Positions 33,936 to 40,050 of a stretch of DNA of 40,050 bases are shown piece by piece (position 1 is the stretch's first letter; each line of letters starts with the position of its first letter). The stretch is from Phycisphaerales bacterium (GTDB lineage Bacteria; Planctomycetota; Phycisphaerae; Tepidisphaerales; Tepidisphaeraceae), in contig JADYZN010000030.1 of the NCBI GenBank assembly GCA_020853095.1, positions 1 through 40,050 on the forward strand, given 5' to 3'. The notes beneath the pieces are model-generated. The model saw nothing but the letters and a program-made list of their open reading frames with translations, did not search any database and was not told where the DNA came from. The position numbers and the translations under genes were made by a program.

Positions 33936-36900
33936 TCAATCCGAAGGCACGGGAGTGACAATGGCGGCGGAATTGGTGGGCGTGACGCCGGAACGGTCCA
34001 CGATAAAGGCAAACCGGCGCTCGGCGACGACCTTGGCGTTGGTGGTGCCGACGTTCTGCCAGCCCTGCAGGAGGACGTAACAGGTGAAGGCATCGGAACG
34101 GGTGGTCACCAGGTTGCTGATGCGGGTGAGTTGCAGGTTGCGTTCTTCAAAGTCGTTGCGAACACCATCCACGACGCCCACTCCAAATGGAGACAGATCG
34201 CCAAGGTTGTCATCCGGATCGGTGCTGATGGTCCCAAATCCGTTCTGGAACGACGGGCCGGAGATGGTTCCGACTTTGTTCAGGTCGAACAGGCTCTTAA
34301 AGGGTCCATTGGCCAGGCGATATTTCACGATTTCCCTGGCCGCGTAGGCGTTAAGCGTCCTGTAGGTCCACGAGCCGGGAACGGTCGTGGTGGCGTTGGC
34401 ATCATCCACCTGTCCGGTGGAGGGATTGACCACCAGCGGCAGGGCCGACAGCACTTTCCATGAAGCGGTGTTGATGTTGATCTGGCCGTGAATGGGGACG
34501 GCGTCTTCGTTGACGCCAGGCGTGGTGCCGTTTTTGACCGAATTGCTGACGTTTCCGACTGGGTCGGGCATTGGATTATTGAAGGGGAGGCCGTTGTAGT
34601 TTCCTTGGTCGACGTCTGGCAGAAAATCGTTATTCGGCGACTGGACGGTCAGGTAATCGAAAATATCTCCTGCCCAGTCGTAGGAATTATAACCAACATG
34701 GTCAACGGATGAGATCGAGCAGAATCGTCCGATGGGTTCCTCAAGATCATCAATGGCAACCCCATCATCGGCCTGGAGAGTGTCCATGGTGATGGCGTTG
34801 AGCGTGGTGAAGGTGTTGGCGGTTGCGCCGACCACTTGAATGCGATACGCCCCGATGAACGGAACCTGGAGGATGTCGCCATTGCGGGCGAATGCGCCGA
34901 AGGGGAATTTGTTGGAAGCGCCGCCGAGTTTGTTCCAGCCCGCCCAGTCGGCATTGCTCAGTTGGATCGGAGGATAAGGGTTGGTGTACGTGCCGGTGGC
35001 ATCGGCAGCGCCAAAGGTGGCGGCGGGCGTGCCGGCAAGTTCGAACGTCGGGGTTCCGGCGGTTGGATCCCACGTTTGAATGATTGTCCCCGCGCTGGTC
35101 AACGTATCGCGATGACGCGGGTCGGCCGGTCCGGTGCCGGAGGTTGTGGTGTACGGCCCGGGATAGACGCAATCGAACTCATGGCCGGGGCCGTTGGGAC
35201 GGACGTAATGCCAACTGTTGAACGGAGCGGCGCCGGTCACGATCAGGCCGGTGAAATCATACGAATCCAGCGGCACAAGATCGGAAAGATTCGGCGCGGC
35301 GGGGGTTCCTTCGTCATAAACCCCGGTAACAAATGTATAGGATCCATCACCCATGCGCGGCCGCAACAGGACCAGTTCGCCACCGGTGGAGGTGATGGCG
35401 GCGTTTTCGAGGACTTCGTGCAGATTGGCGATGAAGACGGTGGGGACCGTGGTCGCTCCCGCGCCGATGGGACGATACATGGTGGGCGTGGTGCCGCCGG
35501 CGGCGTCGTAGTTTTCAAGGACCAGATAGCTGTTGGCGGGCATGATCTGCGTGAAGCCGGTGAATCCGGTGATGGCCTTGACGGTGTAATCGCCGGCCAA
35601 GGCGGCGTGACGATCAATGATGCCCAGTTGCCATCCGGTCAGGTTGATGGGAAATGAATAGGGGTTGTACAGCTCGATGGAGACGTAGCCGTTGGGGTTT
35701 TGCAGGCCGATGGGATTGGGCGAGCCGGCCCCCTGCACGGAGTTGTCATCGTTGGCGTAAACCTCGGTGATGAAGGGTTGCGCCTCGTTGCTGTAGAGCA
35801 TGACGTTGACGGTGCCGATGTTGATGTTCTGACTGTAGATGTCGCTTTTGCTGTCACGAAGGCCCAGGGCATTGAGGGCGGCCAGCCCGGAACGGACCTG
35901 GGCCATCTGCGGAGCGGAGAGCGTCACCGGCGTGGTCGGGGCGGTGCGAACATCCCGAATCGAAGGGCGAAGGATTCCGGTCGGGGTGGCCAGGCTCATG
36001 TCCGGCGCATCGGACATGACCATCCAGAAGGCCCGCCAAAGTTCGTCGAACGCCGTGGTGTTGATGGCGGCGCGGGGCATCTGCGCGGCGTTGGCGCCGG
36101 TGTTGAGCGCTTTCATGCCGGCATTGGGCAGCGTGTAGGTTGGATAGGCACTGGTGCTGACCACCGGAGCGAGGTTGGAGACGGGGTTGCGCGTGACGAG
36201 CAAAGCCCGCAGCGGCTTGATGTTGGCCCCCGTGCCGATGACTTCGTTGTCAAAATCGAAGTTGTCGTAGAACCACGTTCCCGCCGAGCCGCCGGCGGCG
36301 GCGCTGGTGCCGACCTGGTTGGCGGCGTATGCGTAGTATTTTGGATAGTTGTAGAGCGAATCGGTGAAATACTGTTCGAGGGTTGAGCCGGAATAGGAAG
36401 AGCGCAGCACAAATCGCGACGCGAGACCCAGTGTTTCGGACAGCGATGGAGCGCGATAATAAGAGTTGGTGTAGTCGTAGCCGGGATTGTCCAGTCGGCG
36501 GCCAAGCTGCGAATTGAGGGCATCGCCCTGGGTGGTGAACTGGAAGTCGGCACGGTTGACGTTGGTATCGCTGACGGGGGTCTGGTTGGGATCGCCCACG
36601 TTGTTAAAGCGCCACTGGTTGTAGAGGGTCATGCGGGTGCTTTTGGGGTCGGTGGCGGTACGGTAGTCGGCCAGAAATTCCATCAGGCCTATGTTGGAGA
36701 GGAAAAAGCCGTTGTTGGCCAGCGTGGGGGCGTTGGTGCCGGTGGGAAAGGCGAAATCGCCCTGCGAGGACCATGCGGTGGCGGCGTTGATGGCCGAGTT
36801 GTCGTCGATGATCCGGACGGCGGCGAACCAGGTGGCGCCATTGACCTGGCCGATGGGGAGTTTGAAATACCCGGAATCGGCGATGCCATCGCCATCGGCG

Positions 36901-37523
36901 TCGGCGGCCAGAAATCCGGTGGCCGGCGTGCCCGCGATCACGCTGCCGGTGGCATCCATCATCCAAATCGCCGGCCAGTTGCTGGTGATGCCGTTCAAGG
37001 TCACGCTGCGGCTGCCAATGGCGGCGTAGACGTTCGACTTGGCGGCGGACATGGTGATCGGGCCGGAATAGGTCTGGCCCGTGGGGTCTTCAAACTGGAT
37101 GTTGGCGCCGGACGAGGTCAATGGCCAACTGATCGAAGGCCATGCGGGGAGGTTGGACGATGCGCCGATGAGGGTCGGTACGCGGGCGGCCAGCCACACA
37201 TCTTCGGTAAAATCGGTGCGGTGGTGATAAACCGTGTCACTCGCCTGGCGATAGCCTCCACCGGAACCAAACAGCGATCCGGCCGCAGCGTTGGCGACCA
37301 TGTTCTGGACGCCTTGGGCGAGCAGGTCGATCTGGGTGTTGTAGGCGTTTTGCTGGGTGGCGTAGCGGTCGGTGCGGGCGGTGGAGATGAAGGCCGTGCC
37401 GATGAGGGCCAGCAGCACCAGCAGCACGACGACGAAAATCAACACCGAACCGCGCCGGGCGTATGCGATCGACCGCCGCACGCGGCCCAGGGTTCGACCA
37501 AAGGTTTCAACCAAGCGCATCAT
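33936..37523 (-). CDS. Giant GspK-like minor pseudopilin/secretion protein with helix-hairpin-helix region
   Basis: 1195 residues. After a basic leader ending YARRG, the hydrophobic helix SVLIFVVVLLVLLALIGTAFI follows, with no Glu at position +5, a trait of GspK/PilX-type minor pseudopilins. A very long globular region then fills residues 60-1010. Near residues 1012-1082, ININTASWKVLSALPLV and YAAREIVKYRLANGPFKSLFDL resemble the helix-hairpin-helix segment of GspK and ComEA. The protein is several times the usual GspK size (about 330). It contains a segment with a calcium-binding-like DADGDGIADSG motif. It lies between a PilW-like prepilin and panE-like gene on the same strand. It probably caps or initiates a pseudopilus; the insert role is unknown. 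Confidence 0.75.
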   Translation of the reverse strand: MMRLVETFGRTLGRVRRSIAYARRGSVLIFVVVLLVLLALIGTAFISTARTDRYATQQNAYNTQIDLLAQGVQNMVANAAAGSLFGSGGGYRQASDTVYHHRTDFTEDVWLAARVPTLIGASSNLPAWPSISWPLTSSGANIQFEDPTGQTYSGPITMSAAKSNVYAAIGSRSVTLNGITSNWPAIWMMDATGSVIAGTPATGFLAADADGDGIADSGYFKLPIGQVNGATWFAAVRIIDDNSAINAATAWSSQGDFAFPTGTNAPTLANNGFFLSNIGLMEFLADYRTATDPKSTRMTLYNQWRFNNVGDPNQTPVSDTNVNRADFQFTTQGDALNSQLGRRLDNPGYDYTNSYYRAPSLSETLGLASRFVLRSSYSGSTLEQYFTDSLYNYPKYYAYAANQVGTSAAAGGSAGTWFYDNFDFDNEVIGTGANIKPLRALLVTRNPVSNLAPVVSTSAYPTYTLPNAGMKALNTGANAAQMPRAAINTTAFDELWRAFWMVMSDAPDMSLATPTGILRPSIRDVRTAPTTPVTLSAPQMAQVRSGLAALNALGLRDSKSDIYSQNINIGTVNVMLYSNEAQPFITEVYANDDNSVQGAGSPNPIGLQNPNGYVSIELYNPYSFPINLTGWQLGIIDRHAALAGDYTVKAITGFTGFTQIMPANSYLVLENYDAAGGTTPTMYRPIGAGATTVPTVFIANLHEVLENAAITSTGGELVLLRPRMGDGSYTFVTGVYDEGTPAAPNLSDLVPLDSYDFTGLIVTGAAPFNSWHYVRPNGPGHEFDCVYPGPYTTTSGTGPADPRHRDTLTSAGTIIQTWDPTAGTPTFELAGTPAATFGAADATGTYTNPYPPIQLSNADWAGWNKLGGASNKFPFGAFARNGDILQVPFIGAYRIQVVGATANTFTTLNAITMDTLQADDGVAIDDLEEPIGRFCSISSVDHVGYNSYDWAGDIFDYLTVQSPNNDFLPDVDQGNYNGLPFNNPMPDPVGNVSNSVKNGTTPGVNEDAVPIHGQININTASWKVLSALPLVVNPSTGQVDDANATTTVPGSWTYRTLNAYAAREIVKYRLANGPFKSLFDLNKVGTISGPSFQNGFGTISTDPDDNLGDLSPFGVGVVDGVRNDFEERNLQLTRISNLVTTRSDAFTCYVLLQGWQNVGTTNAKVVAERRFAFIVDRSGVTPTNSAAIVTPVPSD

Positions 37524-37541: not shown

Positions 37542-39110
37542 TTATGGCAGATCAATCACGTATTCCATCGTCTGACCGGTGACCATCCGGCCGGACGGAT
37601 CGTCCACGGTGGCGACGATGCGGATCATTTTCGGCATCGGCTGGCCTGTGGTGTCGGGGCCCCATGCGACGATGTATTGGGAGCCATCCGTCATCGCCGG
37701 GACGCCGCCGGACACAAGGGCATAATTCACGGCATAAGCGGGAAGCGCTCGTTCAAATGACGCCCATACCGGCGACGGTACGGTGACGGCCGAATTTCTC
37801 ACATCACGCAGCGGGACCACGTCCAGCAGATTGATCACGCCATCGCCATTGATGTCGCGGGGCATGCCATACCAGCGCGTCTGAGCCACGCCGCCGGAAA
37901 TAAAATAGTCCACCTTGCCATCGGAGCCTGCACTGAGAACCCGGCCATAATTGGCATTGGCCGGGTCGTTCTCCTGAACCAGAAAATCCCCGGCGTATTC
38001 AACGATGAACTGGCTGCACGAGGACAAAAACGCCGGAACGGTCCGCGCGATGACCTGGCTGGAGAGGGGCTTGGTGGGGAAGATGTTGCATTGATAGCGG
38101 AAACTGAAACGGGTGTTCCACCAGTCCAAAAGGTTGTTGGGAGGATCGATCGCCGTAACGAGCCGTTGACGAAAATCGTCGATGGTCGTCCCGGCCAGGT
38201 CATAGCGTGACCAGGCGACGTTGTATCGATCCGCCGGAGCGGCTTCGCTGGAAACCGAACTCATCGCCAGCGGAGACAAGGACGTGGGTGGATCGGTCGT
38301 CCAGTGTTTCAGATACACCTGTGAATTGCCGTACAAGTCGTAAATATTGTCCGAACCGTCGGGTTGGCGGAGCAGCGTGACGACGCGACCGAGAATCCAG
38401 TTGCTGGCATGGAAATTGTCGTCGTTGCGATCCGGCGGCACTTTGCTGAAATCCGGGAGTTCGCCGGGGCTGCGGTTTTCATATCCTTGCAATGAATTGA
38501 GGGCATCGGAGTTGGACGGTCCGGCCGGCGAGCTGAAATCGGGGCGTTTGACGTGCCCGTACCAGATCCACGCTTCGTTGGAAGACATGTTGGCGGCGAA
38601 GGTTCCGATGTTGCCGGTCTGACGGGGGAAATATCCCCTCGCGAAGAACATCAGCATGTCGGTGCGATGGTTGCGATAGTTGTAAATGGCCGGCGAGATG
38701 ATCTCTCCTGCGACGCCCACTTCACCTTCGGTCCCATCGTTGTCGAGATCGATACTCAGGATTTGGTTGATGCGGTTGGCATAAGTGTCGGACTGGTTGT
38801 AATCCCGATCGCCCAGTTGATCGGCCTGGTTGAGAAACGCCGGGGTCTGTTGCGAGCGGATCATGAAGATCGGCGGGTTGCTGGTGACGGCGCCGTGCAG
38901 GTCGTTGTTAAAGACGCTCTGGGCGCCGCGCAAATCGCGGCTGGCGGCGTTGATGGCCTGGCCGGCGCCGACGGTGTCGGTGGTCATTTTGAAGACCTGG
39001 TTGATGCCGACCATCAGGATCAGCACCAGCGCGATGGCGATCATCAGCTCCACCAGCGTAAACGCCCGCCGGCGAGTGGAGGATCGAATTGGGAGCGATC
39101 GTCGGTTCAT
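37542..39110 (-). CDS. PilW/GspJ-like prepilin-type protein
   Basis: 522 residues. MNRRSLPIRSSTRRRAFTLVELMIAIALVLILMVGIN is a class III leader followed by the N-terminal helix with Glu5 (cleavage before Phe, after Ala instead of the usual Gly). The mature part is large. A dockerin-like calcium-binding motif DINGDGVINLLDVVPLRD lies around residue 420-440. ATG 39110 is chosen since upstream codons overlap the previous gene. It is the second of three pilin-type genes in transcription order, 18 bases before the GspK-like gene. Prepilin peptidase would process it. The Ala at the cleavage position is unusual because Gly is strongly preferred. Confidence 0.82.
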   Translation of the reverse strand: MNRRSLPIRSSTRRRAFTLVELMIAIALVLILMVGINQVFKMTTDTVGAGQAINAASRDLRGAQSVFNNDLHGAVTSNPPIFMIRSQQTPAFLNQADQLGDRDYNQSDTYANRINQILSIDLDNDGTEGEVGVAGEIISPAIYNYRNHRTDMLMFFARGYFPRQTGNIGTFAANMSSNEAWIWYGHVKRPDFSSPAGPSNSDALNSLQGYENRSPGELPDFSKVPPDRNDDNFHASNWILGRVVTLLRQPDGSDNIYDLYGNSQVYLKHWTTDPPTSLSPLAMSSVSSEAAPADRYNVAWSRYDLAGTTIDDFRQRLVTAIDPPNNLLDWWNTRFSFRYQCNIFPTKPLSSQVIARTVPAFLSSCSQFIVEYAGDFLVQENDPANANYGRVLSAGSDGKVDYFISGGVAQTRWYGMPRDINGDGVINLLDVVPLRDVRNSAVTVPSPVWASFERALPAYAVNYALVSGGVPAMTDGSQYIVAWGPDTTGQPMPKMIRIVATVDDPSGRMVTGQTMEYVIDLP

Positions 39111-39117
39111 GCGTTTC

Positions 39118-40050
39118 TCATCTGACCGAAATAAAAGTCGTGTAAAAGGCGACATCCTGCGCGGGACCTTCGTAGCTGCCGGTGGAGATGTCTTTGCCGA
39201 CAACAAAGGCGTCGGCGTTGGTAAGGGTGGTCACATCGTCACCGCTGCCGCCGTTCCATACGCCATTGGGGCCGTTATCCGCTGAAAAATCGTTGCCGGG
39301 CATGAGTTCCCAGGTCGTGCCGCCGACGTAACTGCCCACGCGATAGACCCGGCCATTCATCCAGCCGTTGCCAGGACCGCTGATGTTGTCGTTGGCGATC
39401 ACCAGGTAACACCCTTCGGCCACGGCGTTGAAATCGCCGCCGTTGAACGTGACCGTATCGGGGATGCCGTCCAAAATGGAGACGTTCACGCCGCGCGCTT
39501 GAAGATTGCAATAGATTGAAGGGGCGACTACGGCCATGTCCTGGGCGACGGTGAACTGGTCGCGGGTGCGGGCCTGCATCACAAAGACAAAAAGCTGCGC
39601 GGTTGAAGAACCGTTGGGCCGTTTATACAGCAGGACCGATGCGAAACGCGGGTCGTCGGCATTGATCAGGTCGCCGCTGAGGCTTTTCCAGAGGTTAAAG
39701 GTGTCAAGCAGTTTGTTCGTGCCGTCAAATTGCGGGTCGGCGATGGAATAGACAAATGTCCCGGTGGGTTTGAACAGGTTGCTGGAGGTCGTGTATTGCC
39801 CCAGTTGCTGCGCGACGTTGGCCATTCCGCGTGCGATGGAGGCGGCTTCGGATTCATCGACGTTGCTTTTGCTCTGCTGGATGGCGACGGGAAACATGGC
39901 GGCGAGCATGATGAAACCCACGCCCAGCAAAATCACCGCGAACATGACTTCGGTGAGGGTGAAGCCCCTGGTCCCCTCTCCCCATGGGAGAGGGTTAGGG
40001 TGAGGGTGGGCTCGGCATCGGGATGGTTTCGAGTTGGGAAATACCCTCAC
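39118..40050 (-). CDS. PilV/GspI-like prepilin-type protein with repeat-derived leader (5' end at window edge)
   Basis: At least 310 residues on the minus strand, open to the window edge; a GTG at 40050 could be the start, but the frame may continue outside. Near the N-terminus a Gly precedes FTLTEVMFAVILLGVGFIML, the prepilin helix with Glu5. The leader includes AHPHPNPLPWGEGTRG, which is the translation of a REP-like palindrome (39974-40007), so this gene's leader has absorbed the repeat. The mature protein has a globular part of about 270 residues rich in Asn, Gly and Thr. The stop is 7 bases before the next gene's ATG. It is the first pilin-type gene of the operon. Confidence 0.78.
   Translation of the reverse strand: MRVFPNSKPSRCRAHPHPNPLPWGEGTRGFTLTEVMFAVILLGVGFIMLAAMFPVAIQQSKSNVDESEAASIARGMANVAQQLGQYTTSSNLFKPTGTFVYSIADPQFDGTNKLLDTFNLWKSLSGDLINADDPRFASVLLYKRPNGSSTAQLFVFVMQARTRDQFTVAQDMAVVAPSIYCNLQARGVNVSILDGIPDTVTFNGGDFNAVAEGCYLVIANDNISGPGNGWMNGRVYRVGSYVGGTTWELMPGNDFSADNGPNGVWNGGSGDDVTTLTNADAFVVGKDISTGSYEGPAQDVAFYTTFISVR
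39974..40007. repeat. REP-like palindromic repeat with CCCTAACCCTC flank
   Basis: CCCTCTCCC (39974-39982) pairs with GGGAGAGGG (39986-39994), a perfect 9-bp stem with a 3-base loop, followed by TTAGGGTGAGGGT. This pattern (on the minus strand CCCTCACCCTAACCCTCTCCC) is a repeat I recognise from many bacterial genomes, often mistaken for peptide HPHPNPLP. Here it lies inside the prepilin leader. Confidence 0.75.
40043..40050. repeat. Possible start of a second repeat copy cut by the window edge
   Basis: The plus strand ends in TACCCTCAC, matching the opening of the same repeat in the opposite orientation (CCCTCACCC...). Only 7 matching bases are visible, so this is weak. Confidence 0.3.

Follow-up and report, generated by a model that had tools for sequence, protein, structure and literature searches.

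An inverted REP-like doublet in frame with the leader of a PilV-like prepilin in a Phycisphaerales bacterium

The window analysed here, a stretch of 40,050 nucleotides from a Phycisphaerales bacterium, ends in a short palindrome that reads in open frame into the cleavage site of a prepilin. This raises the question whether a mobile repeat supplies the leader of a pilin, whether the true start lies elsewhere, or whether the gene is dead. A sequence-only reading had described the palindrome as REP-like and as a rare instance of a repeat providing functional coding sequence, and had proposed, among other checks, a search for further copies in the genome and an alignment with orthologues lacking the repeat. 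These two could be carried out, and both answers bear on how the locus is best explained.

The palindrome and the prepilin frame

The palindrome (39974-39994, 21 nt) is perfect: its arms, CCCTCTCCC at 39974-39982 and GGGAGAGGG at 39986-39994, are complementary at 9/9 positions around a 3-nt loop and are followed by TTAGGGTGAGGG up to 40007. Palindrome and tail read AHPHPNPLPWGEG on the minus strand, within a 310-residue frame (39118-40050), followed by T-R and then the Gly-Phe cleavage site; repeat and cleavage site together read AHPHPNPLPWGEGTRG before FTLTEV. From the contig edge, the minus strand runs GTG AGG GTA TTT CCC AAC TCG AAA CCA TCC CGA TGC CGA GCC CAC CCT CAC and continues CCT AAC CCT CTC CCA TGG GGA GAG GGG ACC AGG, then GGC TTC ACC CTC ACC GAA GTC. 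The protein has the Gly-Phe-x3-Glu site and hydrophobic stretch of a type IV prepilin; it scores above the cut-off of TIGR02532 (18.6 bits, cut-off 16.3, site GFTLTE) and below that of the PilV equivalog TIGR02523 (25.4 bits, 1.6e-5, cut-off 52.2). On its sequence we call it PilV-like, not PilV. Two points of the first description are thus borne out: the palindrome reads in frame, and repeat-derived residues immediately precede the Gly-Phe site of what the two profile matches mark as a PilV/GspI-like prepilin.

Table 1. Coordinates of the features at the end of the window, and prepilins elsewhere with REP-like palindromes in their leaders (named by locus)
Feature	Position	Strand
Third gene: large GspK-like protein with helix-hairpin-helix motif, intact	33936..37523	-
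Next gene: PilW/GspJ-like prepilin, intact	37542..39122	-
Mature part of the PilV/GspI-like minor prepilin, beginning around the Gly-Phe site, intact frame	39121..39969	-
Outer end of the element, GACCAG, also present in the C14 copy; covers the Thr codon and bases 1 and 2 of the Arg codon (TR before GF)	39968..39973	-
Near arm of the inverted REP doublet: 9-bp palindrome, 3-nt loop, CCCTCACCCTAA tail; HPHPNPLPWGE in the prepilin frame	39974..40007	-
Doublet spacer, encodes FPNSKPSRCR(A); related to the C14 and C53 spacers	40008..40042	-
Beginning of the inverted second arm, 8 bases (GTGAGGGT on the minus strand); holds GTG 40050-40048	40043..40050	-
Prepilin of a Gallionella MAG: MMTAPKHPLSLTLSRKREREL before GFTLVEM	L161	
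Two prepilins of one Thermodesulfovibrionia MAG, same REP palindrome in both leaders; L166 has a GTG start	L107:809-2470 and L166:5914-6372	
DUF1559 prepilin: MPETSVRTCSGALPSPFGRGSAARRD before GFTLVEL	L200	

The second arm of a doublet is cut off after eight bases by the contig end at 40050, past which the sequence cannot be extended. Alignment to two copies elsewhere in the genome (on contigs C14 and C53) begins at query base 29, that is, window 39968. The end of the element, GGGGACCAG, is identical in the C14 copy (L001), so that a single base separates the repeat DNA from the Gly codon, and the T-R is repeat-encoded. We read the window palindrome as one arm of an inverted REP doublet, REPIN-like and about 112 bp long: the repeat family first suspected is real, and its member here is half of an inverted doublet and not a lone REP.

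Might the REP be of the usual extragenic kind, placed upstream of a gene whose translation begins beyond the repeat or at an ATG in the palindrome loop? Such arrangements occur: a prepilin gene of the same genome (L313) has a palindrome arm less than 120 bases upstream of its cleavage site, outside its short leader MKNRS, and in a relative (G022) 40 of 40 related doublets examined lie outside genes. At the window locus, however, only ACC AGG stands between repeat and Gly codon, which excludes a start downstream of the repeat and contradicts that alternative of the sequence-only reading; the loop ATG is out of frame, and a start at the Met in the hydrophobic segment would remove part of a conserved helix. 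We regard an extragenic position as highly improbable.

A small repeat family with copies in reading frames

In the genome itself (G000; 3.61 Mb, 77 contigs), the exact palindrome CCTCTCCC-N3-GGGAGAGG occurs 11 times, against 0 for the reversed control pattern, and a query with window 39940-40050 finds two matching loci over 83 bp, C14 with 83% and C53 with 79% identity; taken together, the exact copies and the identity to two complete doublets show that the repeat is not due to chance. Both loci are inverted doublets with palindromes 82 bp apart. The genome has three instances of the doublet pattern GTGAGGG-N-CCCTCAC, one of them at 40000-40050; a relative of the same genus (G001) has none. 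From this presence and absence we infer that the doublet moves as a unit. The proposed search for further copies has therefore yielded 11 exact palindromes and three doublets. In L003, L005, L006, L007, L010 and L011, palindromes stand singly between predicted genes.

REPs are palindromes of 20-50 nt with a GTAG-like tetranucleotide, mostly intergenic and associated with TnpA-REP (PMC8266576). The present repeat has the size and the repetition of a REP (21 nt, 11 exact copies), and C14, C53 and the partial doublet ending at 40050 have the two inverted REPs and spacer of a REPIN or BIME. No GTAG stands beside the palindromes in the loci read, which have TTAGGG/TCGGGG and GACCAG/GGGAG as flanks. 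The genome encodes a RAYT-like Y1 transposase (Y1_Tnp, above the Pfam cut-off; L328, G000:C16:535-882, minus strand), whose best NCBIfam match, REP_Tyr_transpos, reaches 69.4 bits for a cut-off of 80, with no repeat arm in the 3.5 kb around the gene; judged from its sequence, it is a candidate mover of the repeat. The element is named REPIN-like because of the missing GTAG, the transposase score below the NCBIfam cut-off and the lack of a repeat arm near that gene. Like the REP/REPIN systems with TnpA-REP (RAYT) (PMC8266576), it consists of short GC-rich palindromes, single and in inverted doublets, in a genome encoding a RAYT-like protein; it differs in lacking GTAG, in its few copies and in the contact of all three doublets with coding sequence, REPs being described as mostly intergenic.

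The C53 doublet (L008:1501-1601; G000:C53:14717-14817) is complete and lies in frame inside a long conserved membrane protein, where it is read in the same frame as the window copy (LPLSLRERTGVRGCSMSKPFHDQTDPHPNPLPEGEGTRED). This protein is found in 25 of 25 other genomes of the family; 24 align on both sides, as two blocks at roughly residues 1-260 and 315-657, and none of these has the inserted stretch. In an alignment of twelve sequences, G000 alone has a clean addition of about 49 residues, on either side of which G001 is 71-83% identical. The C14 doublet (L001:1501-1601; G000:C14:29658-29758) lies between fabD and fabG, just before fabG, and supplies the C-terminal tail and stop of FabD (ALVPSPSGRGIG, against APTAGAHGTR in G001). 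With the prepilin, all three doublets of the genome thus contribute translated residues. In G022 (L214, L241-L279), in contrast, there are 81 REPIN doublets of a different but related subfamily, most with few open frames, and 0/40 examined lie inside genes; with a sample of three doublets in our genome, this contrast is suggestive only. An open frame is in itself weak evidence, because two of six frames are open across the complete C53 doublet and three of six across C14.

Start codon, selection and the state of the gene

One in-frame start can be seen, GTG 40050-40048, which lies inside the repeat where the contig breaks off. The earlier remark that none is visible thus holds between repeat and cleavage site and is corrected by this GTG within the repeat; should the gene be expressed, its leader would be repeat-derived. 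The GTG recurs in the complete copies, where GGGAGAGG-GTTAGG (C53) and GGGAGAGG-GTCGGG (C14) stand before it; GGGAGAGG six bases before the GTG is plausible as a Shine-Dalgarno-like sequence, which for the window copy is extrapolated from the complete ones. In relatives, the prepilin starts at or just behind the stop of an upstream FimT/GspH gene (L038, L041, L042, L044, L047), so that an old ATG may still serve in the window gene. A search for the FimT/GspH gene in G000 and G001 returned generic N-terminal matches only.

The repeat-free orthologue is found in G001: its prepilin is 85% identical, has no repeat at the site and carries a different leader, MMHLPLTTTPPTPPRG before FTLTEV (that is, MMHLPLTTTPPTPPR before GFTLTEV). 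Changes between the two mature parts fall at codon positions 1/2/3 in the ratio 27/29/97, with a dN of 0.097, a dS of 0.776 and a dN/dS of 0.126 (NG86), a pattern of past purifying selection on the prepilin body. If the insertion is recent, as it may be, this constraint does not show that the gene still works. This bears on the possibility that the insertion killed the gene by cutting its start off from the body, with the frame still open just because little time has passed and the repeat is poor in stops here. The start is not visible, the complete doublets have two or three of six frames open by themselves, and a fold of 111 nt (-40.3 kcal/mol, z -1.9) predicts a strong hairpin just upstream of the cleavage-site codons, all of which would suit a dead gene. 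Against it speak the full-length, intact and constrained body, the intact genes downstream, the exact phase of the element to the Gly-Phe site, the in-frame GTG inside it and parallel cases in other genomes with upstream starts (L161, L107, L166, L200). We consider the loss of the gene unlikely.

Contig ends in repeats are error-prone, and contig C11 of G001 also ends just upstream of the prepilin (67 bases; L038:1-67). The prepilin might then have been joined in assembly to a repeat from elsewhere. A chimera of this kind is very unlikely in our judgement, as the loop and spacer of the window copy differ from those of every other copy found, and the junction falls at the natural element end GACCAG, with no shared sequence across it for an assembler to jump.

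We think it probable that a REPIN-like element has inserted in frame into a cleaved prepilin leader and is tolerated there. The doublet would have inserted at the 5' end of the minor prepilin gene after the split from G001 (or would have been lost in G001), presumably through a RAYT-type transposase. Being open in the prepilin frame (...LSLRERVRVRV...PHPNPLPEGEGTR...), it would now encode the leader, with two candidate start codons: the GTG that it carries, and the old ATG, which would lie farther upstream, past the end of the contig. Prepilin peptidase would then remove the leader and leave the mature pilin unchanged, hence the tolerance; translation, start site and processing are as conjectural here as the part of the transposase. 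Class III signal peptide leaders are hydrophilic and of variable length, have Gly or Ala as their last residue and are cut off on the cytoplasmic side (PMC10191384); the present one is basic (net about +4) and ends Arg-Gly, with a Glu close to the cleavage site. The tolerated-insertion reading draws on the doublet family, the repeat-free sister, the constraint on the body, the exclusion of a downstream start, the frame open across both complete copies, the C53 copy, the FabD tail, the REP leaders with upstream starts in other genomes and the variability of leaders (PMC10191384). What weighs against it is that the contig ends at the GTG, short of the far arm and the true start, that the insertion may be recent, that the leader has a Glu near its cleavage site, that a hairpin is predicted and that 30 other prepilin leaders of the genome have no repeat. 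The latter also means that there is no leader hotspot in this genome, whose many prepilins of the GFTLVELLVV type point to a probable planctomycete.

"Functional", as the residues had been called, says more than has been shown, and tolerance is the simpler reading since the leader is cleaved and variable; that leader residues are repeat-derived is well supported by the sequence. A bolder and rather doubtful possibility is that the REPIN acts as a portable translation-start and leader cassette, in which the outer arm would bring the Shine-Dalgarno-like GGGAGAGG and the GTG, the body a basic hydrophilic peptide and the edge the Arg before the Gly. A pilin would in that case owe its entire initiation region and its class III leader to one mobile element.

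Repeats in prepilin leaders elsewhere

When about 85,000 species genomes were scanned for a palindrome together with GGNTTYACNYT, at least 117 stretches matched. Among the matches listed, at least seven loci besides the window have a GFTLxE prepilin body that shares its open frame with the palindrome, without an intervening ATG, and at least four of these have a plausible upstream start and family support (L161, L107, L166, L200; Table 1). The scan shows recurrence, not enrichment, as the GFTL sequence is part of the query. In a phylum survey of 392 genomes for the exact palindrome with GFTL, the window is the sole real case; another match, G181/L090, is not a prepilin. On these sequences, REP-like palindromes inside prepilin leaders appear uncommon, not unique.

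Palindromic elements in frame within genes are established for the Rickettsia palindromic elements and noted for other MITEs (PMC10969869). The Rickettsia RPEs (Ogata et al. 2000 and 2002, reviewed in PMC10969869) are likewise palindromic mobile repeats, of about 100-150 bp, translated in frame in unrelated genes. The present case involves another host and, by the description read, apparently another element, an inverted REP doublet in three copies of which one forms a cleaved prepilin leader. In-frame MITE-ORF fusions (ERIC, BOX and others) are likewise non-autonomous repeats that extend or enter host frames; they belong to other element families, and a prepilin leader is not among the cases read (PMC10969869). 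The literature search found no description of palindromic insertions in prepilin leaders, of the peptide PHPNPLP or of a translated REP in Planctomycetes. The "rare instance" of the sequence-only reading cannot be upheld: the same REPIN lies in the membrane protein and the FabD tail, REP-like palindromes stand in leaders of other phyla, and the Rickettsia elements offer precedents (PMC10969869). With its repeat-free sister for comparison, the locus would be a clean example from nature of a mobile, otherwise extragenic palindrome turned into coding sequence. Together with the membrane-protein copy, it suggests that some REPINs, like the Rickettsia RPEs, persist in genes because one of their frames is open and hydrophilic. 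Cleaved prepilin leaders would be a natural site of tolerance for such insertions, a prediction that is directly testable.

Prepilin leaders of the Tepidisphaeraceae also contain translated short tandem repeats, mostly of 7-bp units, in 13/103 cases against 1/109 other gene starts from the same regions, a comparison whose idea was formed partly on the same loci. In ten other families the same script found 0/82 against 2/337 other gene starts, so that prepilin leaders as general repeat traps are not supported beyond this family; the excess is at most a peculiarity of the Tepidisphaeraceae. One such leader reads MKPSSFILHPSSFRK before GFSLPEVM, and 7-bp tandem repeats (such as SSFILHP, QSAIGNR and ALCTLHS) are seen in the leaders of L044, L050, L051, L052, L053, L039 and L042.
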